This document shows positions 19,639 to 47,179 of a stretch of 64,000 nucleotides of DNA, in pieces. Position numbers and translations under genes: made by a program. Source of the DNA: a bacterium. Lineage in GTDB: Bacteria; Myxococcota_A; UBA9160; UBA4427. A model generated the notes under the pieces. That model was not told where the DNA came from. It did no database searches and saw only the letters and a list, made by a program, of their open reading frames with translations. The stretch spans positions 124,001 to 188,000 of the forward strand of contig JANSYR010000002.1 of assembly GCA_024742285.1 (NCBI GenBank). The letters are read 5' to 3'. Positions within the stretch are counted from its first letter, which is position 1, and every line of letters begins with the position of its first letter.

Positions 19639-19649
19639 GGGGTGATTGG

Positions 19650-20150: not shown

Positions 20151-20162
20151 AAGGGGGCCGCC

Positions 20163-22608: not shown

Positions 22609-22618
22609 GGGGTGAGAG

Positions 22619-23521: not shown

Positions 23522-23531
23522 CCGACTGCGA

Positions 23532-23560: not shown

Positions 23561-23682
23561 TTTCGGAGTCCCAGAGAAGCCGCTCTATCGGCGGTCCTGC
23601 GGTTGCTTTCGAGCGATCGTGGTCCCGGGTTCCCCGGAGAAGCCACGCAAACCAAGCGTGAACCTTCTACGAGGAATCCAAC

Positions 23683-24558: not shown

Positions 24559-24573
24559 GGGGAGGAGAGAACC

Positions 24574-25098: not shown

Positions 25099-25107
25099 GG
25101 GGTCGTC

Positions 25108-25293
25108 ATGGCTGCACGACTCATGGCCGTCACCGGTCAGCAGGACATGAGCACGATCGCGTCGGTCGCCGCGGGTTCCGACCCGGGCACCGACATCATC
25201 ACGATCCAGTTCGACGACTCGGACGACAAGTCCACGAGGCGAGCGGCGCTCACCCGTGCCCTGGAGGTCCTCACGGAGGAGGGGTGGCTCTAA
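25108..25293 (+). CDS. Small structural-region protein, unknown function
   Basis: A 61-aa acidic protein, AARLMAVTGQQDMSTIASVA at the start and RRAALTRALEVLTEEGWL at the end. It sits between the putative decoration gene and tail tubular A; its TAA is followed directly by the GTG of the next gene. Probably a minor virion or assembly factor. Confidence 0.6.
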   Translation: MAARLMAVTGQQDMSTIASVAAGSDPGTDIITIQFDDSDDKSTRRAALTRALEVLTEEGWL

Positions 25294-33200: not shown

Positions 33201-33909
33201 CGAGTTGCATGGCGAGGACTACTTCAACCGGCTCGCCGGATCCCTGATTCCACAAGGCGCCGCGACGTTCACCTACGCGATGGATCCGGTCTATCGGGAG
33301 GTCACGGACTGGCAGGATGCGATCCGAGCGCGGACACCGGGGCTTTCGGAGGGCATGCCCGCCGTGCACGACCTGCACGGACGCGAACTCACGCGGCAGG
33401 GACCGCACGGTCGGACGTACGACATCCTGTCTCCGCTGTACGCCTCTGAGTGGGATCCCGAGCCGATCGATCTCGAGATGCAGAAGCTCGAGATGCACCG
33501 CGCCCGCCCGAGCTGGAAACAGCAGATCGACGGTGTTCAGGTCGACCTCTCCCGCTACCCGGGTGCCTACCAGCACTTCGTCAAGCAGGCTGGGGACGGC
33601 CTGACCGGCGAGGCGCCCGGAATGATCCAGCGTGGTCAGTACGTGAGCGACGGCGGCACCCGCCTTCAGGAACTCAACTCGCTCGTCTCCGGCACGCACT
33701 CGCTTTCAGGCTGGTACGAGCAGATGGGACGCGAGGCCAAGATCGCCTTCATCCGTTCCGTGTTTCAGGCGTTCAACGACGAGGCGAAGGACGACCTGAT
33801 GCGCGAGTTCCCAGAGATCCAGCAAACCGTGAACGAGCAACTCCAGCAGGACTGGCTCGAAGAGTACGGGGTCTCTGCCGACCCGAATACAGTGAGGCTG
33901 TTCAGATGA
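30271..33909 (+). CDS. Large internal virion protein, gp16-like or polyvalent-type
   Basis: A 1212-aa protein from GTG, overlapping both neighbours. An N-terminal Ala/Gly-rich part leads to a long helical body. YLSLLSGPHTHARNFISN near residue 570 and ALAAGDEIFKTANFMAELHA near 712 are segments seen in large phage proteins that are injected with DNA; ALLAVFTDLALQGRLTG is followed by MGWRPNSIMLG. No lytic transglycosylase motif was identified, unlike T7 gp16. The ejection role is inferred from gene order and size. Confidence 0.72.
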   Translation: MSTPIEPHANVMQAHAEREETQRKAARRERMIAEYRERQAALAAEAAPAAPPGGGDGDDDDDKPFDLGSLSGGPHGEHAPGAMESASRAGGVAHSLVPYPTQIAGALLDAAQEAPAALVDMSDWLGEKLNLPGDMGAIVGDEEWGIRHDVVDAIQALVPDIEEREDGGGAAARGIAQFIAGFALTRKLPGMEKLAAAGRTGQITSAALRGAVADFAVFDPHEDRLSNLIQEFPALENPVSEYLAADPDDGEAEGRFKNALEGLGLGVALDGLFLGVRAIRNARRGAAEVTEPFESMAREVEVLDERVTLQKQRFDELLGDPEAPIFDITPARVSPDEIAESGATGSARAPAAAARGAKGEEGAEYVINWSRIDEADDVKAIMQDIANASKEEIDAVRGPKMRFAQVEAEAGEMNAFEVLKHRRELNGAALPPAEATALRALFVTSGRKVRELAAAVRADPGSEINQIAFRKMMSIHNLIQAEALADQAAAARTFAARRIPVGDTPEFMQQMEELTGLYATGTDTLDIADRVLRYERMGRQDAIAPFVYGTPWAKTQDGIAQLWYLSLLSGPHTHARNFISNTTVLPLQVMERRVASFLSQHGGSGEVATEEAAAMLTGMWEGIRKALRVSAAGRQVLRDGLEQPAFAGDAIRENADEFGTFYQSLATGRSGFGSGKVDERVLGAFDPEKWEMSRTTPMGAVMSVFDTATAMPTRALAAGDEIFKTANFMAELHAQATRRVAAEVKAGRIAPDDYLDEVTRLVNEPDKAMRLQAMQFADESTFTNTPPRGSTIHRAMRSLANIPVVGRVTMAFVRTPYNIGRFTFRRTPIALAMRSYRDAIEAGGREAELARAQMLTGTALLAVFTDLALQGRLTGNGPPDSKERAHLRRMGWRPNSIMLGSVEDDTARFYSYRGLEPVAGLLGMAANTTEILAAAAHEDDPELDELVIASSLAIANQMTAANYMQGVSGILEAMNQPELHGEDYFNRLAGSLIPQGAATFTYAMDPVYREVTDWQDAIRARTPGLSEGMPAVHDLHGRELTRQGPHGRTYDILSPLYASEWDPEPIDLEMQKLEMHRARPSWKQQIDGVQVDLSRYPGAYQHFVKQAGDGLTGEAPGMIQRGQYVSDGGTRLQELNSLVSGTHSLSGWYEQMGREAKIAFIRSVFQAFNDEAKDDLMREFPEIQQTVNEQLQQDWLEEYGVSADPNTVRLFR

Positions 33910-36770
33910 CCGTATCAGTCGAGACCAAGCGTGCGCAGAGCAACGGCGACGGATCGACCGTGGCCTTCCCTTTCGGCATACCCGTGAAGGCGGAGACCGA
34001 CATCGCGGTGCTGAAGACCGCGACCGCGACGGGCGTCGAGACGCCGCAGGTCCTCACGACCGACTACACGGTCACGCTCACCGGCTCGCCGGCGGGCGAG
34101 ACGGGTGGCGTTGTGAACTTCCTGTCGGCTCCAGCCTCCGGAGAGCGGGTGACGATCTACATCAACGCTCCTCTGACGCAGACTGCGAGCCTTCCGCAGT
34201 CCGGGCCCTTTCTATCGGAAGCCGTGGAGTCCGCGCTCGACCGCAAAGTCACGCTCTCGAAGCGCGCCGTCGACATCGCAGAGCGGTCGCCGACTCTCTA
34301 CGAAGGCGATCTCGACGGGACGGACGGTCGCTACGATGCGAACTCGAACCGAATCGTGAACCTCGCTACACCGGTCGAGACGACGGACGCGGCCACGAAG
34401 GGCAGCGTGGACGCCGCCATTGCCGCGGCGCTCTCCGTTGGGGACGTGACGGTCCTGACTGCGCTGGGCATCGGTTACACGATCGCGGACTACCGCTACC
34501 AGATCGGGGACACCGGCAGCACGGACGTTGACCTCGAGACGCGTCTCGGGGAGACCAAGAGCGTCACGGACTTCGGCGCCACCGGCGACGGGGCCACGGA
34601 CGACACCGTGGCCTTCCAGGCGGCCGTCGACGCCGGCGGGCACATCTTCGTTCCGCCCGGCACTTACCTGCTCGATCAGGTCGAGATCACGAACGAAGTG
34701 CACATCGTCGCCGACCCGCAGGCCATCCTACGGCAGCGGTCGCTCACTGCCTCGCAGGATCAGGCGATCCTCTACTTCTCGACCGGCTCCGACTACTCGA
34801 GCTTCGAGGGCGGGCAGTTCGACGGGAACGCCGCCGCGCTGACCGGGTCGCACACGGACGAAGAGATGATGGCGATCCGCGTCATCAACGCGCCCGATCA
34901 CATCACGATCGAGCGCACCTACATCCACGACTTCCTGTGGGCGGCGTGGCGGTTCGGCAGCGGGAGCTTCTCCGTCTTCCGGGACATCCACATCAAGGAT
35001 TGCGGGAAGGGCTTCGTCCATCAGCAGCCGGTCGCCGGGCGTGTCGAGAACGTCACCGTGGAGGGCGCAGCGAACAACGGAAAGGCGATCTTCCAGCACG
35101 CGGTCGAGATCCGCGACGGCGACCACTTCAAGGTGAGCAACCTCCGCGTCGTCAGCTTCGCGCCGGACGGCTCCGGACTCGAACCGACGCCGAACGCGAT
35201 CGCCTTCCAGCGCATGAAGAACCTGACGGCGGAGAACCTCGTGATTTCGGGCTTCGCCGGCACGGGCGGCAATCCGGGTATCGGGATGGACCTCGATTCC
35301 CTCGAGCTCTCGACGTTCGCGCACATCACGATCGAGGGCGGATACGACCGGGGCATTTCGTGCAACTCGCTCATGGACTGCTCCATCAGCGACGTGCATA
35401 TCGCGATGGAATACAACGCCGAGGGCTCCAGCAATCACGGCTTCCAGGTGCGGACGGGCGGCCTCTATCCGCCGATCAGCCTCGGCGCCGTCAGCGAGAA
35501 CGCGCGTGCGAACGTGGCCTGCCGAAACCTTCGCATCGCGAACGTGATCGTGACGGGAGCCGCGGACCACGGTTTCCACATCCAGTCGGGCGATATCTCG
35601 CTTTCCAATTGCATGGCGATTGGGTGCGACCTGGACGGCTTCCGGATCAACGAGAGTCTGCCGAGCGCGCTCTTCGTCAATCCCCCCATCCCGGCCACCG
35701 CGGTCGTCACGCTGGAAGGCTGCGTCGCGGTCAACAACGGCCAGTGTGGGGTCCGCGTCACGAAGGGTCAGGATGTCTCGATCGTGGGCGGGCTCTTCGT
35801 CAACAACGGTCAGGACTCGTCCGCCGGGACGAACTCGCGATGCGGCGTCGTCGTGAACGACGTGGACCGGATCTCGATCATCGGCGTGGATGTCTCGGAC
35901 ACCCAGTCTTGGTCGACGAAGGCCGACAATGCGTCCTTCGAGCCGGGCGCGACGGTCGGCGATCAGTACGAGGTGAGCCTGATCGACCCCGGCCTCGTGA
36001 ACCTCGGGCAGCGGATCCTGATCCATGATGCGGGCGGCGCCGCGGTCGATGCGACGGCGAAGGTCGTCGCGAAGTACCTGGACGACATCACGGTCGAGAT
36101 CAGCGGCGGATTCACCTTCTCGTCTTCCGGCAACCTGACGACGCTTTCGGGCACGTTCGACACCACGGGAGCCGAGCTCGACGGCGTGTCCGGGACGGCG
36201 CTCGATACGGAGATCATCGGCCGCACGTTCGTGGAGTCCGCCGGCGTCTATCGCCGGATCATCCGAGTGGACGACGCGGCCAACGGGATCATTGAAAGCG
36301 CCTTTCCGTCCGACCTTTCGGGTGCCGCGATCCAAGCGCTTCGATGCGACGTGGACCCGATCGCGTCGCAGCAGGTCGGCGTCCGAATCGAGTCGGCAGC
36401 GACGGAGGTCTACCTGTCCGGCGTCACGGGCGGCGGCAATGTGAGCGCGCTCTACAGCATCGCCGACCCGGCCTCGATCGCCGAGCTCGACGTAGCAGAT
36501 GCCGCTTGGGTCGATGTCGCTTCGGCGAGCACGATCGCGATCCCCTACGGCCGCGGAAACGTGCGCGTGACGGGCACGACGAACGTCAACAACGTGACCG
36601 CGGGCTTCGACGGTCAGTCGGTTCGCCTGTGCTTCGCGGCGTCTCTCACGGTGGCGGACGGGACGGGGAACCTGCGGCTCGCGGGGAACTTCTCGGCGAC
36701 GGCGGACGATGTGTTGGAACTCGTCTGCGACGGCACGAACTGGATCGAGGTTTCGCGGTCGGCCAACTGA
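33906..36770 (+). CDS. Tailspike/tail fibre with beta-helix receptor-binding domain
   Basis: A 954-aa protein. Residues 1-150 resemble the T7 fibre attachment domain (SNGDGSTVAFPFGIPV, VTIYINAPLTQ, and DANSNRIVNLATPVETTDAA like the R-I-V-N-L-A segment of gp17). From about 216, SVTDFGATGDGATDDTVAFQ and FVPPGTYLLD mark a pectate-lyase-3 type right-handed beta-helix, which runs to about residue 700. The end contains two small beta domains. Such spikes bind and often degrade surface polysaccharide; the catalytic residues cannot be assigned by eye. Confidence 0.88.
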   Translation: MTVSVETKRAQSNGDGSTVAFPFGIPVKAETDIAVLKTATATGVETPQVLTTDYTVTLTGSPAGETGGVVNFLSAPASGERVTIYINAPLTQTASLPQSGPFLSEAVESALDRKVTLSKRAVDIAERSPTLYEGDLDGTDGRYDANSNRIVNLATPVETTDAATKGSVDAAIAAALSVGDVTVLTALGIGYTIADYRYQIGDTGSTDVDLETRLGETKSVTDFGATGDGATDDTVAFQAAVDAGGHIFVPPGTYLLDQVEITNEVHIVADPQAILRQRSLTASQDQAILYFSTGSDYSSFEGGQFDGNAAALTGSHTDEEMMAIRVINAPDHITIERTYIHDFLWAAWRFGSGSFSVFRDIHIKDCGKGFVHQQPVAGRVENVTVEGAANNGKAIFQHAVEIRDGDHFKVSNLRVVSFAPDGSGLEPTPNAIAFQRMKNLTAENLVISGFAGTGGNPGIGMDLDSLELSTFAHITIEGGYDRGISCNSLMDCSISDVHIAMEYNAEGSSNHGFQVRTGGLYPPISLGAVSENARANVACRNLRIANVIVTGAADHGFHIQSGDISLSNCMAIGCDLDGFRINESLPSALFVNPPIPATAVVTLEGCVAVNNGQCGVRVTKGQDVSIVGGLFVNNGQDSSAGTNSRCGVVVNDVDRISIIGVDVSDTQSWSTKADNASFEPGATVGDQYEVSLIDPGLVNLGQRILIHDAGGAAVDATAKVVAKYLDDITVEISGGFTFSSSGNLTTLSGTFDTTGAELDGVSGTALDTEIIGRTFVESAGVYRRIIRVDDAANGIIESAFPSDLSGAAIQALRCDVDPIASQQVGVRIESAATEVYLSGVTGGGNVSALYSIADPASIAELDVADAAWVDVASASTIAIPYGRGNVRVTGTTNVNNVTAGFDGQSVRLCFAASLTVADGTGNLRLAGNFSATADDVLELVCDGTNWIEVSRSAN

Positions 36771-36783
36771 TCGCGGGGAGGGA

Positions 36784-39771
36784 ATGACAATGGCACGAAC
36801 GATTCGATTCTTGGCGGTGGCCCTCGCGCTGCTGTTCGCGGTGCCCGGCTGGTCGGCGCCGCAGGCCAACGGCGGGCGGATCTCGGGTGGCATCACCGAA
36901 TGGACGATCACTTTCTTCGCCGGGGACACGTCGGAGTCGAAGTTCCTGGACGTGGGCGGGCAGTGTTCGGTGCGCGTCAACCACAGTGGCACCGGCACCG
37001 TCGAACTTTGGCAGGTCGCCGACAGCAGCGTCGCAGCGACGAGCGGAACGCAGGTCGGCTCCGATTTCACGACTTCGACGACGACTGCGACGACGTTCGC
37101 TCCGGGCACGTTCGGCGTCAAAGCCATCGCGACGACGGCTTCTCCGGACACCGTGATGAAGATCGAGTGCTCGAGGGTGCAGCAGGTGGGGGGCGGCGGC
37201 ACTACCCCTTTCGACTCGTGCCGCTCTGGGGTCAGGGGCGGCGGATTCGATTCGGCGACGGGTCAGTATGCTTGGACCTGCGCAGGCACGGCATGGACTT
37301 CTGGCACGACTTTCTTGGACTGCGACGGAGAGGCTTCGACGACGAGCGGGACGGACGGGCGATGCTGGGCTGACGGCGAGCGCCCGATGGTCGACGAGAC
37401 TCTCGAGGCGTTCATGCTGGCTCACGATGCGACGCTGCCGGGCGGCACGATCTACGTGCCTCTGTTCGCGGGTGAGGACCACGCGATCTACGTCTTCGAG
37501 GAGTGCGACGGTGACGACTGCCCACTGATCCAGCAGGGGTACAGCGACCGCCGAAAGAATCAGCCGAACCGGACGGCCTACATCACGGCGACCCACGGCC
37601 GAAGATTCGTCGCCGAGACCCCGTGCCGAGTCGATCCACTCACTGATCGGCGAACGGGCGTCTGCTTGGTCGACAACACCGACGATGGCACGGAGTCCGG
37701 ATCCTGGGTCTTTCGGCATGGACTCGACCAGGAGGCGAGGTACTGCATCCCGACGAGCACGACGGATCCGACCTGCGACGTGGATGCGGCGGGCGTCGCC
37801 CCGTTTGATATGCCGACTCACGCCCTAGCCGGAGTCTCTTCCTCGGTGGACGAAATCACGCCTAGCACCTCCGGGAACGGCGGATACGGGGCGCTTTGCC
37901 TGGACAACGCAATCACGAGTTCGGTGGCGACAACGAAAGGTGTTTGCCGAGGAGACCCGCGCATTCGCTGCACGGTTGCAGGGTCGAGCTCGAGACTCAC
38001 GACGACGACGGGAGGATGCGATTTCGGAGCGGGTGGCGACCTGGGGCCGTGCGAGGGGTTCGTCGACTACATCGAGCACGCGGTCGAGACTCTCGGAGAA
38101 GAACATTACATCGGCTTGAGGCTGACAAACTTCAATGAGGACGGGAGCACGGCCTCGAACGGCCAACAGTTCCACAAGCTGCCGGTGGAATCGGTCATCG
38201 CTGGGACGTGCGGGCAGGGGACGTGCGAGGGCGGAGACGACGCAGGTCAACCGTGCGACACCAACGGCCAATGTGAAGGCGGCGGCACTTGCGCCAATGT
38301 CGACGAAGGCGCGTTCGTTCGCCTGGGAATCGACGGCGACGAGCCGTTGTTCAGACTGTGGCCGTACATGACCGACGAGATTTCACCTTCTGGCCTCTGC
38401 TCGGGCGGAACAGATGCAGGCGAGCTCTGCTACACGGATTCGCATTGCGACGGCGGCGGGGTCTGCGAAGGCGCGCTGACGGTCAACCAGGTCGATTTGC
38501 TCGACCAAGACGCACGCGACATGGGTCCTGGTTATGCATTCGAGAACTTCGGATTCATGCCTAACAACCCCCTGGGTCGAGACTCGTCTCTCGCTTCGGC
38601 CGATTGTCTTCTCGGCACCGAGGCTGCGTGTGACGAGCGCCCGCTAATCGGCTTCATGTCGGCCGACGGCGGAGGGCACAGATCCAGCCGATACATCCGA
38701 TGCTCCGAGGACGATTCCAAGTCTTGCCTCGACGGTCAGGTTCCCGGTCTCGGAGCGAAGATCCATGATTGGGTCGCGTCCGACGCACGGCAGGGATTGA
38801 TCGCGGACCTGTCTCGGTGGGACTTCGACAATTCTCTGATCGAGGACACGACGATGGACGGTGGTCTGTTCGCCATCTTCGTTTCTGGATCGCGGGTCTG
38901 CAATTTCACGATGCGGAACGTCCGCGCTGCCTACGCGGTCAGCGGGTCTTACGCAAAGAACGTCCAAATCTGCGACTTCACGCTCGATGGGGGGTACTTC
39001 GATCAGGGCATGTTTCGCCTCCGAAACCCCGTGAACTGGACGATCGACCACGGCCAGGTCGGCGGCCTAGCAGGGCATTTTGCTGTGATCGGCGCCGAGG
39101 ACGAGACGAAGATTCGCGGCTTGACGTTCAGCGAAATCAACGCCTTCGGGCACTCTGCGCCGATCATCAGTAGCAGCTTCGGCCCCGATCGATCGAAGAG
39201 CTTCATCGCGGTCACTCAGTCCGTTGTGGCCGCCGACCAGCAACAGGGTGAGCTCGAAGACATCGTGTTCGACGCGATCAAGGTCGAATCGACGTTGCCG
39301 GAGGTGATCCTCGTCCATTTCGATGCGGGGGACGACAATGCGGCTGGAGGTGCGACCGCGACTGACTTGGGCGTCGAGGAGTACATGCACCAGGTGTCGA
39401 TTCTGAACTCGAGCCTTACGTCCGCGTCGGGTGCGCTCGTTTCGTTTATGAACGCGGACAGCTCGTCCAACTTCGACGCGGCCGACACGCTTGATTTCCG
39501 CACGGCAAGCCGAAGACCCCGGATGCAGAACAACCGTCTGAACGGGGTGCCGGCCGAAGACTTTCCGTACACGCAAGGCGCCGCCGCAGCATTCGGGGAC
39601 TGCGAGGGCATGAGCTATGGATCGGTCGTCGCGGTCTACGACGACACGGCCATCGGCGCTTGCACGGATGCGGGAGCCGACGGGGTTCTCGACGGCGGTG
39701 GCACCGCACAGAGCGTGTGCAAGTGCGATCCGTCCGGTGATTCCGGAGATGGAGCCTGGTCCCCTATGTAG
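36784..39771 (+). CDS. Exported beta-helix-type protein with Cys-rich repeats, inside the prophage
   Basis: A 995-aa protein with GGGGAGGGA before its ATG and a clear Sec signal peptide (ARTIRFLAVALALLFAVPGW, cleavage near SA). Two Cys-rich units, CEGGDDAGQPCDTNGQC near residue 480 and CSGGTDAGELCYTDSHC near 540, follow a C-x-GG-x-DAG-x-x-C pattern known from secreted bacterial proteins rather than virion proteins. The second half has beta-helix-like strands (NFTMRNVRAAYAVSGSY, WTIDHGQVGGLAGHFAVIG). It ends CDPSGDSGDGAWSPM, but the -1 frame stays open through this point and continues as another beta-helix segment. It lies 13 nt after the tailspike. It may be a lysogenic-conversion surface protein rather than a virion part. 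Confidence 0.75.
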   Translation: MTMARTIRFLAVALALLFAVPGWSAPQANGGRISGGITEWTITFFAGDTSESKFLDVGGQCSVRVNHSGTGTVELWQVADSSVAATSGTQVGSDFTTSTTTATTFAPGTFGVKAIATTASPDTVMKIECSRVQQVGGGGTTPFDSCRSGVRGGGFDSATGQYAWTCAGTAWTSGTTFLDCDGEASTTSGTDGRCWADGERPMVDETLEAFMLAHDATLPGGTIYVPLFAGEDHAIYVFEECDGDDCPLIQQGYSDRRKNQPNRTAYITATHGRRFVAETPCRVDPLTDRRTGVCLVDNTDDGTESGSWVFRHGLDQEARYCIPTSTTDPTCDVDAAGVAPFDMPTHALAGVSSSVDEITPSTSGNGGYGALCLDNAITSSVATTKGVCRGDPRIRCTVAGSSSRLTTTTGGCDFGAGGDLGPCEGFVDYIEHAVETLGEEHYIGLRLTNFNEDGSTASNGQQFHKLPVESVIAGTCGQGTCEGGDDAGQPCDTNGQCEGGGTCANVDEGAFVRLGIDGDEPLFRLWPYMTDEISPSGLCSGGTDAGELCYTDSHCDGGGVCEGALTVNQVDLLDQDARDMGPGYAFENFGFMPNNPLGRDSSLASADCLLGTEAACDERPLIGFMSADGGGHRSSRYIRCSEDDSKSCLDGQVPGLGAKIHDWVASDARQGLIADLSRWDFDNSLIEDTTMDGGLFAIFVSGSRVCNFTMRNVRAAYAVSGSYAKNVQICDFTLDGGYFDQGMFRLRNPVNWTIDHGQVGGLAGHFAVIGAEDETKIRGLTFSEINAFGHSAPIISSSFGPDRSKSFIAVTQSVVAADQQQGELEDIVFDAIKVESTLPEVILVHFDAGDDNAAGGATATDLGVEEYMHQVSILNSSLTSASGALVSFMNADSSSNFDAADTLDFRTASRRPRMQNNRLNGVPAEDFPYTQGAAAAFGDCEGMSYGSVVAVYDDTAIGACTDAGADGVLDGGGTAQSVCKCDPSGDSGDGAWSPM

Positions 39772-40877
39772 GCATACAGGCAGCGTCCGAGGATCCATTC
39801 GACCTGAGCGTCTACGCGAGCGAGCTCAACGCGGTTCACGGCAGCCCCGCCAACTGGCCGGAGTGGCCGACGGAGCCGACGATCACGAGCGGGCCGACCG
39901 CGCAGACCGACTGCTCGGGCCTCCAGACGGCGGTCGGCATCGCTGGCCGGCACTCGGTGATCGAAACCGGGGTCACGATCGGAAGCTCCGGGACACCCTG
40001 CGTCCTCACGTTCGCGTCGAACACCAAGCTCGAGATGCAGGGGACCGCCTTCCTCTGGGGCCGGTACATCATCAACACCGCGATCAGCAACGTAGAGATC
40101 ACCGGCGGTGAAGCGAACGTCGGGACCGTCTTCTCCACGGTCAACGGCGACGACGTTCTGGTCGAGCAGGGCGTCTACACCTCGACGAGCGGCCCGGTCT
40201 TCTACGTGGGCAACTCCGGAGGTGGACCGACCGCCCGCGTCTCGATCGTGTCGAACGAGATATCCGCCGGATCCTATGCCGTCCTGGCGGACCCCGGCGC
40301 GGTGCCGAATCACGTCGACCTGATGGTCGTGAACAACGACATCACCTGCGCGACGGCGACGGACGAAGCCTGCGTGCGCGTGCAGGACGGCGACGGAGTG
40401 ACCTATCTGGCGAATCGCGCCTTCAATACGGTGGGGCTGAAGTCCTGCTTCCGCATGTACGACGGGTCCGTCAACGCGCTCATGGCCGGCAACGTCTGCG
40501 TGAACGTGAACGGTCTCGCCGCGTTCGAGATTTACTCCACCGGAGAGGTTGGCGGCCCGACGGATCACCGGGGCGACATCGACAACGTCCACATCCTCAA
40601 CAATCGGCACTTCTACTCCGGAACATGGTCCGGCGTGACCTCCGTCTTCGGTGGGCAAGCGGCGGGCAGCGGCGGCCCCGGGCCGTATACCTGCGGCGAC
40701 TTCTTCTCGAGCGGGAACCAGCTCATCAGCAGCAACGATGCGACCTACGTCGAATCCGTGGCGAGTTGCTCCGGTTACACGGAAGACACGAGCGGAGACC
40801 GAGACCTGGACCTGGACGATGCGCCCTACAACGGATCGCCTCCTGACTGCTCAACCCTCGGATGTGGGCCTTCGTGA
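39762..40877 (+). CDS. Beta-helix segment without its own start; -1 continuation of the preceding ORF
   Basis: The frame is open from 39741, and protein-like sequence begins at once (YVGIQAASEDPFDLSVYAS, then DCSGLQTAVGIAGRHSVIE and beta-helix rungs such as VDLMVVNNDITCATATDEAC). The first ATG/GTG/TTG is GTG 39957, which would cut off the first rungs and has no ribosome site. The natural reading is that it is joined to the exported protein by a -1 shift near the CCCC at 39761-39764, just before that protein's TAG. It ends GSPPDCSTLGCGPS. It could be a programmed shift, a natural frameshift mutation or an assembly error. If translated alone it would start at 39957. Confidence 0.55.
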   Translation, partial: PYVGIQAASEDPFDLSVYASELNAVHGSPANWPEWPTEPTITSGPTAQTDCSGLQTAVGIAGRHSVIETGVTIGSSGTPCVLTFASNTKLEMQGTAFLWGRYIINTAISNVEITGGEANVGTVFSTVNGDDVLVEQGVYTSTSGPVFYVGNSGGGPTARVSIVSNEISAGSYAVLADPGAVPNHVDLMVVNNDITCATATDEACVRVQDGDGVTYLANRAFNTVGLKSCFRMYDGSVNALMAGNVCVNVNGLAAFEIYSTGEVGGPTDHRGDIDNVHILNNRHFYSGTWSGVTSVFGGQAAGSGGPGPYTCGDFFSSGNQLISSNDATYVESVASCSGYTEDTSGDRDLDLDDAPYNGSPPDCSTLGCGPS

Positions 40878-41365
40878 TGTCCGCCTGCCCCGAATCGCCG
40901 AAGGTCCCGAACCCGCCGCCCACGATCGGCGGCCCGTTCTACGACTGCGGCATGGGCCCGGTGGGCTTCCGCTCTCCTTCGCCGATGAATCTGCCACACG
41001 GGTTCGGTGACAACGGTCTGTTGAACGGATCGAGTACCTGCATCCTGCCGTTCACGCCGCAGGGGTGGTGGGCTGGGAACGGTCAGCCTGACCTGCCGAA
41101 CATCAAGATCACCGACAGCAACCGCATCATCCACAACGCGGCGATTTTCCCCGGCGATGTCGTCTTCTACGGGAAGAACGTCGAGTGGATAAGTCAGCCG
41201 GGCTTCGGCGCGATCGAGGGCGAGTACCGCTGTGCAGAGAGCGCCGAGAACATCTCGGTCGACGGCGTGTGTCTCTGCCCGGTGCCGGAGCCGGGGTTGC
41301 TCTCTGCGCTCGCGGTGGGGCTACTCGGGCTCGTGTTGGGCGTGCAGAAGCGAGGGAAGAAGTGA
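40862..41365 (+). CDS. PEP-CTERM-tailed prophage protein
   Basis: A 167-aa ORF; an ATG at 40877 forms TGATG with the preceding stop and gives 162 aa. It has no signal peptide of its own (MSACPESPKVPNPPPTIGG). The C-terminus is GVCLCPVPEPGLLSALAVG, then LLGLVLGV and QKRGKK, a canonical PEP-CTERM sorting signal (PEP motif, hydrophobic helix, basic end). Exosortase would anchor or process it at the cell surface if it were exported. It is in the -1 frame relative to the preceding ORF, so it may be the C-terminus of one long exported beta-helix protein beginning at 36784. Confidence 0.78.
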   Translation: MWAFVMSACPESPKVPNPPPTIGGPFYDCGMGPVGFRSPSPMNLPHGFGDNGLLNGSSTCILPFTPQGWWAGNGQPDLPNIKITDSNRIIHNAAIFPGDVVFYGKNVEWISQPGFGAIEGEYRCAESAENISVDGVCLCPVPEPGLLSALAVGLLGLVLGVQKRGKK

Positions 41366-41700
41366 TGGGCGGTAGCCCGGTGATCGACAAGCAGACGGGA
41401 ATCAGCATCGGACTCGCGCTCACGCTGGCCGCGGCGGTGGGCGCTTTCACGCTGGACGTGAAGGAGGACATCACGCGGCTCGACGAGCGACAGAGCGTCA
41501 TCAAGGCGGACACGGACAAGATTCCGTCGATCGAGAAGAGCATCTCGTCGATCCGAACGACGGTGAATCGTATCGAGGCTGCCAACGATTCGGCTTTCTC
41601 GTGGAAGAAGCCGGACATGGAAGTGTGGTGCCTTCGGACGGAGCGCAAGAATGACGGTTGGATCTGCGCCGACCCCTACACGGTTCGGAACGATGATTGA
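41365..41700 (+). CDS. Membrane-anchored coiled-coil protein at start of lysis cassette
   Basis: A 111-aa protein coupled to the PEP-CTERM ORF by TGATG. One N-terminal membrane helix (GISIGLALTLAAAVGAFTL) is followed by a coiled coil (DITRLDERQSVIKADTDKI, SISSIRTTVNRIEA) and a short Trp/Cys-containing tail. Resembles holin-accessory (XhlA-like) proteins or small virion-independent membrane proteins; lysis role inferred from position. Confidence 0.6.
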   Translation: MGGSPVIDKQTGISIGLALTLAAAVGAFTLDVKEDITRLDERQSVIKADTDKIPSIEKSISSIRTTVNRIEAANDSAFSWKKPDMEVWCLRTERKNDGWICADPYTVRNDD

Positions 41701-41980
41701 CCGGCCGCTCGTCAAGGATCTCGTGATCCTGTTCCTGGCGATCTGGCTTGTGGCTCTCTCCGGATACTCGTGGTTTCGCAGCGCGACGCTGGGAAACGAG
41801 CTGCTCGACCGCGCGCTTGCGGCCTCCGAACGCTCTCTCGAGCTGCGGGATCTGGTCGTCGAGAACAACCGCATGAGCTTGTTCTTCAAGCACGACGTAG
41901 CGGCGCTCTGCCGGGCGACCGGGGCCGCTTGCTCATCGGACACGCTGGGGACGCGCGAGCCGTGGGAGTCCGAGCCGTGA
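41693..41980 (+). CDS. Small single-helix membrane protein in lysis cassette
   Basis: A 95-aa protein with a membrane helix near the N-terminus (DLVILFLAIWLVALSGYSW), then a helical segment (LLDRALAASERSLELRDLV) and a Cys-containing tail (ALCRATGAACSSD). The ATG at 41693 overlaps the upstream stop by 8 nt. Build is like an inner-membrane spanin or holin, but a better spanin pair lies downstream. Confidence 0.6.
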   Translation: MIDRPLVKDLVILFLAIWLVALSGYSWFRSATLGNELLDRALAASERSLELRDLVVENNRMSLFFKHDVAALCRATGAACSSDTLGTREPWESEP

Positions 41981-42129
41981 AGCAAGCCGCCGCCATCGTC
42001 GTCGCCCTGGTGCCGCTGGCCGTGGCGGTGGTCGAGTACCGGCACGCGAAGGCGGCGAAGAGCGAGACGGTCGAGGTGGCGCGCGTGCTCTCGGAGGCGT
42101 GCCTGCGAACGAACGAGGTGAGGCCATGA
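41977..42129 (+). CDS. 50-aa membrane peptide in lysis cassette
   Basis: Read from a GTG overlapping the previous TGA (GTGA). It is one membrane helix, AAAIVVALVPLAVAVVEY, followed by a basic and amphipathic tail (RHAKAAKSETVEVARVLSEA). Its stop overlaps the start of the peptidase gene. It may be a holin or pinholin; small size and coupling to the endolysin support this. Confidence 0.55.
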   Translation: MKQAAAIVVALVPLAVAVVEYRHAKAAKSETVEVARVLSEACLRTNEVRP

Positions 42130-42452
42130 GACAAGCGAAGACGCCGGCCGAGTTCGACGCCGACTGCCGCGAGATCGAGGCCGCCTTCCCGGCGCTCTGG
42201 CAGACGAGCGGATACCGCAGCGCGGAGCGGAACGCCGAGGTCGGCGGGCACCCGGAATCCGACCACGTGATCGGGATGGCCCGCGACTACTGCGCGCGAA
42301 CGCTCGAGGAGCTCCATGCGGCCGAGGATTTCGCCGAGAGTCTCGGGCTCTGGGCATTGGTTCACGACAAGGGTTCCGGGATGCACCTGCACGTGCAGGG
42401 CACTCAGCCGGGGCCGCTGCCCGCTTGGTGGGTGGCGAAATACAAGGGGTGA
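42126..42452 (+). CDS. Endolysin, peptidase M15-type
   Basis: A 108-aa protein of the D-Ala-D-Ala carboxypeptidase/L-Ala-D-Glu endopeptidase M15 group. GYRSAERNAEVGGHPESDH gives the zinc-binding S-x-H, GMARDY the Asp position and MHLHVQG the catalytic and third zinc His (H-x-H). It would cut peptidoglycan cross-links at lysis. It has no signal peptide, so it needs a holin; candidates flank it on both sides. It is shorter than most M15 endolysins (about 130-150 aa), so the domain is compact. Confidence 0.85.
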   Translation: MRQAKTPAEFDADCREIEAAFPALWQTSGYRSAERNAEVGGHPESDHVIGMARDYCARTLEELHAAEDFAESLGLWALVHDKGSGMHLHVQGTQPGPLPAWWVAKYKG

Positions 42453-42457
42453 GAGAG

Positions 42458-42643
42458 ATGAAGGGATGGAAGACTGCGCTGGTGGCGCTGCTGATCGTGA
42501 TCTTTGGAGGTCTCCAGACGTTCTTCGAGAGCGTCGAGATGGACACGAGCACGCAGGGCTGGGTACTCATGGGGATCGGTGTCGTGATGACGACGCTTCG
42601 CGCGATGACGAGCACGCCGATCTTCCAGGACGATGCCGAGTGA
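42458..42643 (+). CDS. Holin-like protein, two membrane helices
   Basis: A 61-aa protein with GGGGTGAGAGAG before its ATG. Two helices, TALVALLIVIFGGLQTFF and GWVLMGIGVVMTTLR, are separated by an acidic turn, and the C-terminus is acidic. This is class II holin topology. It sits between endolysin and spanins. Confidence 0.75.
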   Translation: MKGWKTALVALLIVIFGGLQTFFESVEMDTSTQGWVLMGIGVVMTTLRAMTSTPIFQDDAE

Positions 42644-42861
42644 GCCTCGAATGGGTCCTCGGGCTCGTGGGAGGCGCTCTCGTGGCGCTCTTCGGCGGGC
42701 TGGGGTGGTCGCAGGTCCGGAAGCACGGTCGCGCGTTAGAGCGCCGTGAGCGGGCCGAGGAGGAGCGCGATGAAGCGGTCAGCGAAGCGGAGAGGGCGGC
42801 ACGTGCTCCCCTGTCTGGGCCTCAGTCTGTCGATGCTCTTCGGCGCCTGCGCGACGACTAG
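42640..42861 (+). CDS. Inner-membrane spanin (Rz-like)
   Basis: A 73-aa protein from a GTG overlapping the holin stop (GTGA). One N-terminal helix (LEWVLGLVGGALVALFGGLG) is followed by a charged coiled-coil region (RALERRERAEEERDEAVSEA). The o-spanin gene starts inside it in another frame, the classical Rz/Rz1 arrangement. It would span the periplasm with the lipoprotein partner to fuse membranes at lysis. It is shorter than lambda Rz (153 aa). Confidence 0.72.
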   Translation: MSLEWVLGLVGGALVALFGGLGWSQVRKHGRALERRERAEEERDEAVSEAERAARAPLSGPQSVDALRRLRDD

Positions 42862-43030
42862 CCCGGTGGGGGCCATCCGGTGCCCGGCGCCGAACACGGC
42901 CGAGATCGACGACTACGCGCTGATCGTCGAGGCAGATCCCGACCGTCCGGCGGTGCGCTGGGTGGCGAGGGTCATTTCCTATTGTTGGCCTGATGAGGCC
43001 GACGAGGTGCGGCGTGCCGACGCTCGATGA
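42770..43030 (+). CDS. Outer-membrane spanin lipoprotein (Rz1-like)
   Basis: An 86-aa lipoprotein with GAGGAGGAGC before its ATG. A basic N-terminus (KRSAKRRGRH) leads to VLPCLGLSLSMLFGAC, where LFGAC is a lipobox. The mature part has APNTAEIDDY and a Trp/Cys end. It is embedded in the Rz-like gene and extends past it. Its 3' end overlaps a PEP-CTERM ORF in the +1 frame. Confidence 0.75.
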   Translation: MKRSAKRRGRHVLPCLGLSLSMLFGACATTSPVGAIRCPAPNTAEIDDYALIVEADPDRPAVRWVARVISYCWPDEADEVRRADAR

Positions 43031-43388
43031 CCTCGCGGAGTACGCCGCCAATTTCGAGTGTCCGCCGCCTCCGCCGCCCCGTCCGCCGTTCCAATACATC
43101 CTGCACATGCAGGTGCCGGGTGACGCGACGACGCCGCTGGAGCGGATCTGGCAGCCCGGGGACACGATCGAGCAGCCGATCTACGAGGGGATCATCGACG
43201 CGCCGGGTGGGGGAACCTGTGTTGTGTGGCGGGCTCGCCTGATTCGGGCGGGGGCCGAGGCATCGCCTACGGCGTCGTTTATGACGCATCCGGAGTGTCT
43301 GCCGGTTCCGGAGCCTTCGGTTTCGGCTTCGCTTCCGATCGCGCTTCTGGCCGCTTCCGTGCTCGTTCGTCTGCGGCGTCGCGCGTAG
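42993..43388 (+). CDS. Second PEP-CTERM-tailed prophage protein
   Basis: A 131-aa ORF from ATG 42993; a GTG at 43014 has GAGG 7 nt upstream and may be the real start. A proline run (CPPPPPPRPPF) precedes a short beta-rich domain with two Cys (GGGTCVVWRARLIRAGAEA). The C-terminus is PVPEPSVSASLPIALLAAS then VLVRLRRRA, a second canonical PEP-CTERM signal. There is no signal peptide at the N-terminus, although the overlapping o-spanin ORF has one. It is the last rightward gene of the prophage. Confidence 0.75.
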   Translation: MRPTRCGVPTLDDLAEYAANFECPPPPPPRPPFQYILHMQVPGDATTPLERIWQPGDTIEQPIYEGIIDAPGGGTCVVWRARLIRAGAEASPTASFMTHPECLPVPEPSVSASLPIALLAASVLVRLRRRA

Positions 43389-43451
43389 CCTTCCGCTTCC
43401 GGTCGGCGTGGTAGCGGCGCCACGAATCTTGGTCGCAGGGGCCGAGGTTGC

Positions 43452-43640
43452 TCACGGGGTGGCGGCCTTCACGCGGGCGAGTGCTGCTACGACGCTCTCC
43501 CGAGCAAACGGGCGGTCGAGGGTAACGTAGGCTTCAACCGCCGCGATCAGGGCCTCGACCGCCTCCTTCGGCGCGGGGTGGCGCTTCCGCCTTGCTTTCG
43601 AGCAGTCGTCGCATTGAAGGCTGTGCAGACAGTCACCCAT
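43452..43640 (-). CDS. Small phage protein, last gene of the right leftward operon
   Basis: A 62-aa protein with GGAGG before its ATG. It opens GDCLHSLQCDDCSKARRKRH, with four Cys/His that could hold one zinc, then a helical tail (EAVEALIAAVEAYVTL). It overlaps the gene upstream by 8 nt and ends 63 nt from the convergent PEP-CTERM gene. Function unknown. Confidence 0.65.
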   Translation of the reverse strand: MGDCLHSLQCDDCSKARRKRHPAPKEAVEALIAAVEAYVTLDRPFARESVVAALARVKAATP

Positions 43641-43788
43641 CGTCCGCCTCCCGCGCGGCCTCAATTGCTCTGGTGAGTCGCGCATCGGCGGTCAGGAAGT
43701 CGTCGCGGTGCGCGGTGCTTGCGAAGAGCAGGATTCGCACGGCCTCCGCAGTCGCGACGATCAACTCGTCTCGCGTCTTCTCATCCAT
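43633..43788 (-). CDS. Small phage protein, unknown function
   Basis: A 51-aa helical protein (DEKTRDELIVATAEAVRILL). Start chosen at the ATG giving the 8-nt overlap with the upstream gene; the longer open frame upstream has no ribosome site. Nothing else is visible. Confidence 0.55.
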   Translation of the reverse strand: MDEKTRDELIVATAEAVRILLFASTAHRDDFLTADARLTRAIEAAREADDG

Positions 43789-44704
43789 CGCTCTCCGCCT
43801 CCCGCGCGGAGTCGATCTCGTCTTCAAGCTCTTCCCACTCCTCGGCGGAGAGCATGACGCTGGGGCCAGTTTCGACGAGATCAGAGACGATCCGCTTCGG
43901 GTTGCCGCCGTTGATCGCTTCGCCTAGCCAGCCGTTCAGGAAGCACTGCGACTCGTAGAGCTGCTCGCGCACCTTCCGTAGCTTCAGGGTGTCCGGGTGC
44001 GCCTCGCCCTCCGCCGCAGCAACCTCGTCGAGAGTCATCGGCCGACCTCCGTGCTCCGCCGCGGGCTGGGGCTCGTCATCATCGAACAGGTTTCTGTACG
44101 GACGGTTCTCGCCTTCACGCCTCGGGTTCGATTCACACATCTCTTCGGGCTGGGGCTCGAGCGAGCGGAAGGCTTCGGCATTCTCTTCGAGGTCGTGCCA
44201 ACGCTTGACCATCGCGGTCCATTCGGCGTCGACTTCGGCAGCCTGCGCGCCCCGGTCGGCGTGCTGATACGCCCACCAGAGGTCGTACATCTCGGCGGCG
44301 ACGTAGCGTGCTTCGTTCCTCTCGCGCATGAGTCGCGCCACGTCCTGCTCTAGCAAGTCCTCTTGTTGCTTCAGGTCGGCGACCTTGGCGCGGGCTTCGT
44401 CCCGTTCGAGGAGAAGGCGAACGTTATGGTCGCCCGTTTTCCGGGCCGCCTCTTGGACGCTGCGGACGCGTTCCTCCGCGGCCTCCGCGCGCTGCTTCTG
44501 CGCGCGGTACTTGCGACTTAGCAGCTTCACATCCGTTACGTTGTGGGCTGCCATGAGGCGTTCGTCGAGCGCGTTGTCCTGCTCGGAAATCCGGTCGCGA
44601 AGAGTGCGAATGGTGGATTCGTACTCTTGCTCTCGCTGTCTCCAGAGGTCGATTGCCTGCGCTTCCTGTCCAAGCTCGTGGAGCGAGGTCTGGTCGTCAT
44701 TCAT
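43781..44704 (-). CDS. Coiled-coil phage protein, unknown function
   Basis: A 307-aa acidic protein. Residues of about 20-140 form a coiled coil (EYESTIRTLRDRISEQDNAL, RKYRAQKQRAEAAEERVR), followed by a Trp-containing globular part (EMYDLWWAYQHADRG) and an acidic tail (SAEEWEELEDEIDSARE). It shares a base with the stop of the upstream gene (TGATG). Long coiled-coil proteins are common in accessory operons of phages; function unknown. Confidence 0.68.
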   Translation of the reverse strand: MNDDQTSLHELGQEAQAIDLWRQREQEYESTIRTLRDRISEQDNALDERLMAAHNVTDVKLLSRKYRAQKQRAEAAEERVRSVQEAARKTGDHNVRLLLERDEARAKVADLKQQEDLLEQDVARLMRERNEARYVAAEMYDLWWAYQHADRGAQAAEVDAEWTAMVKRWHDLEENAEAFRSLEPQPEEMCESNPRREGENRPYRNLFDDDEPQPAAEHGGRPMTLDEVAAAEGEAHPDTLKLRKVREQLYESQCFLNGWLGEAINGGNPKRIVSDLVETGPSVMLSAEEWEELEDEIDSAREAESDG

Positions 44705-45294
44705 CACGGGTTCCTTTCGTCGTTCCAAGGATGTGCCGCGACAGCGGCATCCACGAGCGCGCGAAGATCCGGCGGGAGTGCCCCGACCGGGGCCATGCGC
44801 CACAGGCGGGCCAGAGCCTTCTGAACCTCGTCCCGCTCCGCGATCCGCTGATCGCAGCGAGCCGCCCACTGTTCGGCTCGTGTTGCAGAGCCGTCCGCGC
44901 ACTCGCGGAGATGGGCAACAGAGCCCTCCAGCTCCTCGACCCGCGCGCGGAGACGGGCGACTTCGGACTCGGCGGATTCGGCGCGAGCTACTGCAACGTC
45001 CAGCCCGCCCGAAAGGAGTTTTGCTTCCCCCTTCGCCTCTGCGAGCGCGGCGCGAAGGCGGGCGATCTTGTCGTATGGATTCTTGTCCTCAGGTATGACT
45101 CGTAACCGGCGCTCAATCTCTAGCTCTTCGCGAAGATCGGCAATCTCTGCTTCCGCCTCTGCGAGCGCGGAGTAGGGCACCACGGGGCCGTACTCGTTCT
45201 CGATCAAGCGGTCCGCCTGGACCTCGCCGGGCTCGCACCGCACGCAGTACCGCTTCACCTCGCCCCCGTCGCCGGCGGATTTCGGGTCAGTCAT
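44704..45294 (-). CDS. Coiled-coil phage protein with CxxC motif
   Basis: A 196-aa protein. The first 40 residues have RYCVRCEPGEVQADRLIENE, a motif seen in small phage Ead/Ea22-like proteins, then a coiled coil (LAEAEAEIADLREELEIERR; SEVARLRARVEELEGSVAHL). It overlaps the upstream gene by 8 nt. Function unknown. Confidence 0.68.
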   Translation of the reverse strand: MTDPKSAGDGGEVKRYCVRCEPGEVQADRLIENEYGPVVPYSALAEAEAEIADLREELEIERRLRVIPEDKNPYDKIARLRAALAEAKGEAKLLSGGLDVAVARAESAESEVARLRARVEELEGSVAHLRECADGSATRAEQWAARCDQRIAERDEVQKALARLWRMAPVGALPPDLRALVDAAVAAHPWNDERNP

Positions 45295-45565
45295 CGGAAC
45301 GCCTCCCCAGATTCCCCTTGAGAACGGCCAGTCGGTTCGCGCGCTTCGCGAGCCGCACGGGCAGTCGGTCTCCGGTGTCCGCCCATGCCCAGCGATGCAA
45401 GTCGAGCGACGTGAACGCCTTGCGGCCCTCGATCTCCGCCTCTGCCCACGACACGAGCCGGCCGTCGATTCTGTCGATGAGTACGTCGGTGACTCGAATC
45501 TCCGGCTTCCACCACGCGCGAAAGCGAGCGAGCCAGTCCTTCGTCGGATCGGCGGGGGCGGTCAT
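45287..45565 (-). CDS. Small Trp-rich phage protein, unknown function
   Basis: A 92-aa basic protein (DWLARFRAWWKPEIRVTDV, DLHRWAWADTGDRLPVRLA). The alternation of beta and aromatic residues suggests a small compact fold. It overlaps upstream by 4 nt and downstream by 8 nt. No family recognised. Confidence 0.62.
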   Translation of the reverse strand: MTAPADPTKDWLARFRAWWKPEIRVTDVLIDRIDGRLVSWAEAEIEGRKAFTSLDLHRWAWADTGDRLPVRLAKRANRLAVLKGNLGRRSDD

Positions 45566-45768
45566 GATTCGTCCTTATCGGTCTCGCCAAGCGTGCCGCC
45601 AGCAAAACCCTCGTGGTCGGGATCGGCGAAGTTCGCCAGCTCGGCAATGAGGCCGCCGAAGACTTGGAGCCGGTGCCCCACGGCACGCATCTCCTTCGCG
45701 ACCTTCCGGCCTTCGTCCCGGGCCTCGCGGAGCTTCCGCTTCGCGCGCATCGAATTGGACTCAGGCAT
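45562..45768 (-). CDS. Small basic phage protein, unknown function
   Basis: A 68-aa protein with a basic helix (MRAKRKLREARDEGRKVAKE) and an amphipathic middle (GHRLQVFGGLIAELANFAD). It overlaps the upstream gene by 8 nt and the downstream gene by 4 nt. Function unknown. Confidence 0.6.
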   Translation of the reverse strand: MPESNSMRAKRKLREARDEGRKVAKEMRAVGHRLQVFGGLIAELANFADPDHEGFAGGTLGETDKDES

Positions 45769-45976
45769 CGTCGGCTTCGGCGAGGATGACCGCCTCCCGC
45801 AGCTCGGACCGGACGGGGAAGTCGCCCTCTTGCTGCCAGTAGGCTTCTCCAGCCTTGATCGCGTCGGAGAGCGAGCCGGCCGCGACCCTGCGGCTCTCGG
45901 TCCCCCCGTCGACTTCGTTACCTTCTTCGTCCTCGTACCACACGTCGAATCGCAGCTCGTAGATTCTTGTTGCCAT
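45761..45976 (-). CDS. Small acidic phage protein, unknown function
   Basis: A 71-aa protein, ATRIYELRFDVWYEDEEGNE at the start, with an alternating beta pattern, then SLSDAIKAGEAYWQQEGDF. AAGGAG lies 7 nt before the ATG, which is preferred to an in-frame TTG one codon upstream. The pattern resembles small single-domain phage inhibitors or Ocr-like acidic proteins only in charge; no function assigned. Confidence 0.6.
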   Translation of the reverse strand: MATRIYELRFDVWYEDEEGNEVDGGTESRRVAAGSLSDAIKAGEAYWQQEGDFPVRSELREAVILAEADDA

Positions 45977-45979
45977 CAA

Positions 45980-46348
45980 TCACTCCTTCTCGCTGTCTCC
46001 CGCGCCAAGCGGCGGGGAGGGGCAATTTGGGTTGTCGCACTGGTACTTGCCGGGGCGAACCACCTGAAGCCACTCGCGGCAATCGCCGCACCGCGCGCCG
46101 TGCATCCCCATCTCCGGCCACGTTGTGCCGGGAGGCATCAACCTCTCCCGGAGATCACGCGCAAGCAGCTCGTATCCATCCCTCTCGCACGATTCCGCAT
46201 ACGCCCGGATCGCGGCGGGTGCGTGCGGGTCGTGAGTGAGGTCGAGCACGAAGTAGTCGGCTCCCTCATGCTTCCCGCCCGGCTCATCGGATCCGTCGAC
46301 CCTCGACACCCTGAACTTCCCGAAGAGACCTCGTGTTCGATCAGCCAT
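45980..46348 (-). CDS. Phage protein with C-terminal zinc-ribbon-like motif
   Basis: A 122-aa protein. YFVLDLTHDPHAPAAIRAYA and SCERDGYELLARDLRERL form a segment common among phage hypothetical proteins. The end CGDCREWLQV...CDNPNC gives two Cys pairs of a zinc ribbon. It overlaps the downstream gene by 4 nt less than usual (3-nt gap) and the upstream regulator by 8 nt. Confidence 0.65.
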   Translation of the reverse strand: MADRTRGLFGKFRVSRVDGSDEPGGKHEGADYFVLDLTHDPHAPAAIRAYAESCERDGYELLARDLRERLMPPGTTWPEMGMHGARCGDCREWLQVVRPGKYQCDNPNCPSPPLGAGDSEKE

Positions 46349-46571
46349 CCGTCTTCTCCTTGGGCTCCGCTGCCAGCGCCTTGAACGGATCGACTCCGGC
46401 CCACTCGCAAGCCTTCAGGAACACGACGACCGAATGCGGCGCGTAGTCGCCTCGTCGCATCCGAGACAGCGTGTTGAACGAGATCCCCGACGACTTCGCT
46501 GCCTCTCGCAGTGTGATTCCGCCTGCGTTGTTGATCGTGGCCTTCAAGGCTGCTTCGAGTCGGCCGCTCAT
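46341..46571 (-). CDS. XRE-family helix-turn-helix regulator
   Basis: A 76-aa protein with GGAGGCGG before its ATG. TLREAAKSSGISFNTLSRMR and RGDYAPHSVVVFLKACEWAG form a compact Cro/C1-type DNA-binding domain (two-helix motif with S-R-M-R recognition helix). It is the third gene of the right-end leftward operon and may control it, or feed back on the main switch. Targets unknown. Confidence 0.78.
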   Translation of the reverse strand: MSGRLEAALKATINNAGGITLREAAKSSGISFNTLSRMRRGDYAPHSVVVFLKACEWAGVDPFKALAAEPKEKTDG

Positions 46572-46900
46572 TCCGCCTCCTCCTTGGGCTCCGCTGCGGG
46601 CGGGGGAGCGAACCGTGCAGAGCGGTGATGCAGGAACAGGTAGAGAGCGGCGTCGACCGCGTTCTCGCTGGGCGTCGTCCCGTCGAGCGGGCGCAGCACA
46701 CGGACGAGATCGTCCGCAGCTTCCAGCGCCGCGTGATCGTGGAAGTCGCTCGGAGTAGGACGAGCGGCGCGCTCTAGCCGAGCACATCCCTCGCACGCGA
46801 CGTTCATCTCGTCGTTCATGGCGTGGTCAGAGATCCAGAAGCCACACTTCCGGCATCGCCAGCCATCGATCACGGTGCATTCCCAGCTCGCCCCACTCAC
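46568..46900 (-). CDS. Phage protein with treble-clef-like Cys motifs
   Basis: A 110-aa protein from a GTG overlapping the upstream TGA. Early residues WRCRKCGFWISDHAMNDEMN then VACEGC give CxxC...CxxC, a small zinc fold. The rest is helical (ALEAADDLVRVLRPLDGTTP, VDAALYLFLHHRSARF). It overlaps the regulator by 4 nt. Function unknown. Confidence 0.65.
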   Translation of the reverse strand: MSGASWECTVIDGWRCRKCGFWISDHAMNDEMNVACEGCARLERAARPTPSDFHDHAALEAADDLVRVLRPLDGTTPSENAVDAALYLFLHHRSARFAPPPAAEPKEEAE

Positions 46901-47073
46901 TGCGGGGTGGCCTCGCGGGGAGAGGGGGCGCACTCACAGGCAGCGTTCACGAGGTCGTAGCGCCAGCCGTCCGAGCACGACGCCTCGCAGGCGCGCAGCA
47001 CCTCGTGGATCGTCGGCTCTCGATCGACGCCGCAGCCGGGGAGGGCGAGGGCGGCGAGGAGCGCGAAGGCCAC
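46897..47073 (-). CDS. Small Cys-rich lipoprotein next to the right att site
   Basis: A 58-aa product from GTG 47073 (GAGG 9 nt upstream), or 64 aa from a CTG at 47091. AFALLAALALPGCG is a lipoprotein signal with the lipobox Cys; the mature part has four more Cys (RACEASCSDGW, NAACECAP). It is the first gene of the right leftward operon, 60 nt from the att core. Phage-encoded small lipoproteins often change the cell surface or exclude other phages; this is inference. Longer versions of this frame run antisense through the tRNA remnant and are not real. Confidence 0.6.
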   Translation of the reverse strand: MAFALLAALALPGCGVDREPTIHEVLRACEASCSDGWRYDLVNAACECAPSPREATPQ

Positions 47074-47132
47074 CTGACCGAACCTCGCCAGATTCCCTAG
47101 GCGTTCCGGCCGGTTAGGGCGTTCGTAGACGG

Positions 47133-47179
47133 GCCTCCGAAGCTGGGGGTCGCGCGTTCGAATCGCGCCCGGGTCACCA
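47133..47179 (+). other. att core, right end of A and left end of B
   Basis: A perfect 47-bp copy of the tRNA-Arg 3' part (anticodon arm to CCA). The 5' half of the tRNA is missing here, so it is an att remnant and not a gene. It serves as attR of element A and attL of element B, whose integrase gene lies immediately to the right. I see no third copy up to 64000. Confidence 0.93.

Follow-up and report, generated by a model that had tools for sequence, protein, structure and literature searches.

Putative exosortase substrates encoded by phages, with two diverged examples in a tRNA-Arg prophage of a UBA4427 bacterium

The window analysed here is a 64,000-nucleotide stretch of a bacterial genome (GTDB lineage Bacteria; Myxococcota_A; UBA9160; UBA4427; assembly GCA_024742285.1, contig JANSYR010000002.1, positions 124,001 to 188,000), and it contains an integrated prophage, element A, in which two open reading frames (ORFs), P0001 and P0002, end in the manner of bacterial PEP-CTERM proteins, the substrates of exosortases. 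As the initial annotation had described for ORFs 40862-41365 and 42993-43388, both C-termini consist of VPEP, followed by a hydrophobic stretch and then by basic residues (VPEPGLLSALAVGLLGLVLGVQKRGKK in P0001 and VPEPSVSASLPIALLAASVLVRLRRRA in P0002). The features of the locus are collected in Table 1.

Element A is bounded by two identical 47-bp attachment (att) repeats, each a piece of the tRNA-Arg gene (5250-5296 and 47133-47179), and has an integrase, terminase, portal, capsid, tail and lysis genes, that is, everything by which a prophage is recognised. Its virion genes (terminase at 18136, portal at 20621, major head at 23683, tail at 25440, internal virion protein at 30271 and a T7-like tail spike in the frame at 33450) match PHROG families phrog_2, 332, 3437, 376, 6651 and 13893. 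P0001 and P0002 sit 3' of the spike gene, around the endolysin, in a co-directed run of overlapping genes, and they belong to the late region of a real prophage. It had been considered at the outset that the region might be host DNA trapped between two prophages, which would make P0001 and P0002 ordinary host PEP-CTERM genes, and a second integrative element, element B (47133-64583), does directly adjoin element A in the same tRNA-Arg; however, both ORFs lie between the att copies at 5250 and 47133, after the spike and around the endolysin. Because the att map places both inside element A, the region is not host DNA between prophages; we regard such an origin as extremely improbable, and trapped host DNA is ruled out by this map as the source of the two ORFs. 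Element B itself is about 17.4 kb long, stands in tandem with element A and ends at a third att copy (64539-64583); its integrase (47651-48805) is about 72% identical at the DNA level to part of the element A integrase, and a 27-bp att fragment is found at 64836.

Table 1. Features of element A and of the host gene beside it, in window coordinates
Feature	Position	Strand	Remarks
Host PEP-CTERM protein with signal peptide, tail VPEPSGLLPLLTALGALTHLARRRTV	1469..5170	-	directly left of the prophage
Element A	5250..47179	.	complete-looking prophage in tRNA-Arg gene; ARAGORN and self-BLAST
Tyrosine integrase	5309..6601	-	adjoins the tRNA; PF00589, E=2.5e-25
Podovirus-type virion genes	18136..36770	+	PHROG matches and PF03906
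ORF1, 995 aa, Cys-rich, signal-peptide-like N-terminus MTMARTIRFLAVALALLFAVPGWSA	36784..39771	+	hydropathy 3.05 in the first 33 residues
ORF2, Cys-rich	39744..40877	+	no ATG/GTG/TTG before 39957; coding signal from the ORF1 stop
P0001, Cys-rich domain and VPEPGLLSALAVGLLGLVLGVQKRGKK	40877..41365	+	likely ATG 40877, TGATG overlap; ORF 40862-41365 in the initial annotation
Small protein, hydrophobic N-terminal segment	41365..41700	+	start overlaps P0001 stop (TGATG); from sequence
Small membrane protein	41693..41980	+	from sequence
M15-type endolysin	42126..42452	+	PF08291, 27.0 bits (cut-off 23.2); phrog_894 endolysin
Holin-like small membrane protein	42458..42643	+	putative, from position and hydrophobicity alone
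Rz-like inner-membrane spanin	42640..42861	+	putative; transmembrane and coiled-coil pattern, nested partner
Rz1-like lipoprotein, lipobox LFGAC	42770..43030	+	putative, from sequence; out of frame inside the Rz-like gene
P0002, orphan ending VPEPSVSASLPIALLAASVLVRLRRRA	42993..43388	+	last gene of the lysis cassette; TIGR02595, 16.9 bits

The search with PEP-CTERM models that the initial annotation proposed divides the two proteins: P0002 lies 0.9 bits above the curated cut-off of TIGR02595 (16.9 against 16) and has no match to PF07589, and P0001 stays under both cut-offs, with 13.7 bits on TIGR02595 and 17.6 bits on PF07589 (cut-off 20.7). Both tails are without the Thr or Ser that host tails usually have two residues after PEP. 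The host genome (6.55 Mb in 56 contigs) encodes four exosortases above the cut-off (PF09721), enzymes for which the same annotation had suggested looking, and contains 33 PEP-CTERM matches at E<=0.001, scoring from 23.7 to 30.7 bits; the tails of P0001 and P0002 are weaker than all 33 of these listed host signals, including the weakest one. Of the host protein to the left of the prophage, previously given as 1469-4573, the PEP tail stands and the extent does not, its ORF being that of Table 1.

A hidden Markov model of the host tails gave P0001 0.2 bits and P0002 a negative score, and because it was too strict for diverged tails, an ungapped matrix was then chosen, which was built from the 33 host tails, preselected for high score and with their own scores thus representing an upper yardstick. 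When 1,091 ORF C-termini from 103 kb were scored with this matrix, the PEP tails ranked first: the host gene just right of the window reached 45.6, P0001 16.9, the host protein at 1469-5170 15.2 and P0002 5.6, with 1.9 for the best other C-terminus, and the C1 paralogue of P0001 (see below), entered into the comparison by hand, reached 18.1. Since the PEP tails rank above all other C-termini, those of P0001 and P0002 are beyond chance yet weak.

Both proteins are also without a signal peptide, as called by a home-made hydropathy measure and not by SignalP: the highest 11-residue mean is 0.67 in P0001 and 0.26 in P0002, against at least 2.05 in 32 of the 33 host substrates, whose N-terminal part has a strongly hydrophobic segment preceded by a basic residue. 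In the founding survey of the system a signal peptide was present in about 97% of PEP-CTERM proteins (PMC1569441). No upstream in-frame extension was found that would give P0001 or P0002 a signal peptide; in P0001 there is an in-frame stop just upstream, and the longest possible extension brings none. As called, the two proteins should therefore not reach an exosortase at the outer side of the membrane.

A possible export route for P0001 leads through the two genes upstream. The coding signal runs from ORF1 (frame 1) straight into ORF2 (frame 0) at the ORF1 stop, and for about 190 nt after the onset of its coding signal ORF2 offers no ATG, GTG or TTG; this stretch scores 0.26 per codon, which resembles true coding (mean 0.27) and is matched or exceeded by 7% of wrong-frame windows. 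ORF2 may start at a CTG (39756), or may be joined to ORF1 by a -1 frameshift or an assembly indel. P0001 and P0002 could be real exosortase substrates of the lysogen that decorate its surface after export by a route that is not visible in the called ORFs, P0001 by forming the C-terminal part of an ORF1-ORF2-P0001 protein of ~1,530 aa made by frameshifting and P0002 by means of an unrecognised signal. This would agree with the signal-peptide-like start of ORF1 and the absent start codon of ORF2, with the existence of a host paralogue in which a signal peptide, a middle region and the P0001 domain are joined in one ORF, and with the positive-inside rule, by which basic residues after a C-terminal helix favour an exported N-terminal part. 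On the other hand, P0001 would require two shifts to gain the signal peptide of ORF1, ORF2 and P0001 meet in a TGATG overlap, no canonical slippery site is seen by eye at either junction, the C1 paralogue has the gene start of P0001 in common but not the sequence upstream of it, and nothing upstream rescues P0002. Export of P0001 by way of the ORF1 signal peptide is possible, judging from these sequences, but not likely, and we consider it rather unlikely that the two proteins are exported substrates of this kind. No relatives of ORF1 were found in 98 related genomes or in phages, and none were found for ORF2.

The P0001 domain is present twice more in its own genome. One copy (C1:320055) is 69% identical to P0001 and has the same VPEP tail, and in the other (C2:427323) it is the last domain of a secreted protein, 845 aa long, that bears a signal peptide and lacks a PEP-CTERM tail. 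In this secreted protein (L018, G000:C2:418000-437000, minus strand) a long (Glu-Pro)n linker precedes the P0001-like domain, which ends exactly where the PEP-CTERM tail of P0001 would start. Between P0001 and the C1 copy the nonsynonymous and synonymous substitution rates (dN and dS) are 0.25 and 0.98 overall, with dN/dS of 0.25, and 0.17 and 0.60 over the 24 tail codons, these being rough NG86 values from short alignments. Outside its own genome P0001 has no relatives among viral contigs, INPHARED, 85k species genomes and 331 genomes of the phylum. A single-sequence AlphaFold model of it has a predicted local distance difference test score (pLDDT) of 36, with the C-terminal helix as the only confident part, and a PDB profile search gave no match. 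The simplest reading of these comparisons is that the domain came from the host, though the C1 copy and P0001 may instead stem from a shared older phage source.

P0002 has no relatives in its own genome or in phages, and its codon usage is weak at its end. The names holin, Rz and Rz1 for its neighbours in element A were assigned by pattern only; the candidate spanin pair after the endolysin (42640-43030) was recognised by eye, and its Rz1-like ORF has no Pfam match. Given this setting, the tails might do no more than anchor lysis-region phage proteins in the membrane by their C-termini, with no exosortase involved and with a likeness to PEP-CTERM that is convergent or vestigial. In favour of this are the absence of signal peptides from P0001 and P0002, their low tail scores, the missing Thr or Ser at the second position after PEP and their location flanking small membrane and lysis genes. 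Plain anchors, however, need no VPEP, which precedes the helix in both proteins; the P0001 tail is kept in the 69%-identical paralogue with silent changes exceeding replacement changes, and the two tails within 2.5 kb in element A contrast with none in about 8,500 ORF ends of other phages examined. Anchoring combined with a convergent or vestigial likeness is, in our judgement, unlikely.

PEP-CTERM genes were also sought in environmental phages by scanning IMG/VR for DNA encoding PEPxTALL and PEPxTLAL and then testing the reading frame, which yielded about 20 PEP-CTERM genes that were complete or nearly so, the majority of them with a signal-peptide-like start. Nine of the ten proteins tested lie above the TIGR02595 cut-off, at 19.8-27.0 bits (e.g., L220, L256, L280, L276 and L207); the second protein of L276 scored 14.1 bits in the protein test and 18.1 in the whole-record search. 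All 20 whole viral records have a match over the cut-off, and four have two (L219, L276, L234 and L216), with both genes lying within about 2.5 kb in L276, L234 and L216. The genes are found next to those for terminase, portal, major head, spike, tail, primase/helicase and methyltransferase, no exosortase was found in the 20 viral records, and dN/dS across the tested pairs from the viral families is 0.14-0.52. One viral contig (L186:738-4001) encodes a terminase-like ORF of 1,087 aa that, by eye, looks interrupted by an intein. The idea put forward in the initial annotation, that a phage borrows the host sorting system, is well supported in the IMG/VR phages, where signal peptide and PEP-CTERM tail occur among phage genes with no exosortase, and is doubtful for P0001 and P0002 because the signal peptide needed to reach the exosortase is missing. 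The roles that the annotation suggested, namely to decorate or close the surface of the lysogen or to target lysis proteins, are candidate functions.

A search with the alignment of one viral family, A2, found 122 viral loci, 80 of which were kept for analysis, and only 6 cellular ones in a set of about 85,000 species genomes, namely on four contigs of Rhodopila, Sabulicella and Roseococcus (two loci on one contig), which we take to be Acetobacteraceae, and in one Planctomycetales metagenome-assembled genome. Under strict thresholds a PEP tail is present in 71 of the 77 complete viral ORFs and a tail together with a signal peptide in 62, those that fail being mostly near misses or xEP variants. 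A structural-gene homologue lies within 8 kb of at least 41 of the 80 loci, and 13 are bracketed on both sides by phage structural genes, usually the portal before and the major head after. In the tree the viral rows form several deep clades apart from the small number of cellular ones, which sit on long branches, and one or two label changes suffice; judging from the deep separate viral clades, phages have probably retained the gene over a long period. Purifying selection acts on the family. This recurrent and conserved set of viral genes supports the general idea that phages encode exosortase substrates.

The nearest known system is PEP-CTERM/exosortase protein sorting (EpsH; TIGR02595, PF07589 and PF09721; Haft et al. 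2006, PMC1569441), in which the extreme C-terminus likewise consists of VPEP, a hydrophobic helix and a basic end, and the host of element A, with its four exosortases and 33 stronger signals, resembles it; P0001 and P0002 differ from it in being phage genes without a signal peptide and with scores at or below the cut-off. For several of the environmental phage proteins a large part of the sequence aligns with the flocculation-associated PepA (NF033554), such as L280 with 47.9 bits over residues 20-214, but they fall under the family cut-off of 80 and are phage-carried, and a floc function would be putative for them; P0001 touches PepA in the tail only (11.2 bits), and P0002 has no match to it. 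Phage morons and lysogenic-conversion surface proteins are likewise extra genes between structural modules and would change the host surface, the difference being that the PEP-CTERM phage proteins would depend for delivery on a sorting enzyme of the host, the exosortase; we know of no described moron that is delivered in this way. P0002 can be compared with Rz/Rz1 spanins and lysis cassettes as the last gene of such a cassette, but known lysis proteins have no PEP-CTERM-like tail. The sorting system is known, and phages as its users are apparently undescribed: in keeping with the initial annotation, which was aware of no such phage class, no description of phage PEP-CTERM proteins was found in openly available papers, with subscription papers and preprints mostly outside the search.

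We propose that phages infecting PEP-CTERM bacteria encode exosortase substrates while depending on the Sec export and the exosortase of the host. A signal peptide combined with a PEP-CTERM tail leads to export and sorting in an exosortase-positive cell; the complete form of the phage protein, possessing both, would be exported with its tail held in the inner membrane and, after cleavage by the host exosortase, would arrive at the cell surface or in the exopolysaccharide, where it would most likely alter the surface of the infected or lysogenic cell, either against superinfecting phage or with a change in aggregation; export, cleavage and function are the steps that we infer here. Element A would have a divergent and probably host-derived version of this, with two late-operon proteins whose tails are weak and which have no signal peptide. 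P0001 probably came from the secreted-protein repertoire of the host and, as it would now be a separate C-terminal piece, the two proteins are probably poor exosortase substrates or none; in an alternative branch of the proposal, P0001 would be joined via ORF2 to the signal-peptide-bearing ORF1 by frameshifting. On balance, P0001 and P0002 look more like diverged or partly decayed cargo than like working substrates.

Several observations weigh against this proposal. The viral families are known from predicted viral contigs, and the two representatives searched have no counterpart among INPHARED isolates. P0001 and P0002 share no homology with the viral family, no tie by descent was established between them and it, and the ordinary TGATG overlap of ORF2 and P0001 speaks against the frameshifted branch. 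No PEP-CTERM tail was found in the 154 kb of other same-type prophages, several being only fragments, that were retrieved from 379 genomes of the phylum, nor in 714 kb from 44 viral loci whose portal genes are related, so the phage type of the window lends no support to a shared trait. With these points included, we consider the proposal as a whole, namely phage-carried exosortase substrates that alter the cell surface, with element A as a divergent case of poor substrates or non-substrates, to be somewhat probable. That phages widely encode substrates of host exosortases which are installed on the surface or exopolysaccharide, with two diverged examples in element A, seems to us evenly balanced between true and false.

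Flocs and other surface traits of environmental bacteria depend on PEP-CTERM proteins, most of which, to our knowledge, have no known function. If phages repeatedly encode such proteins, under purifying selection and with no exosortase of their own, this would give them a testable role in the control of the infected-cell surface, for which family A2 is a ready set of candidates. If true, phage infection would be linked to the structure of flocs and biofilms, e.g., in activated sludge.

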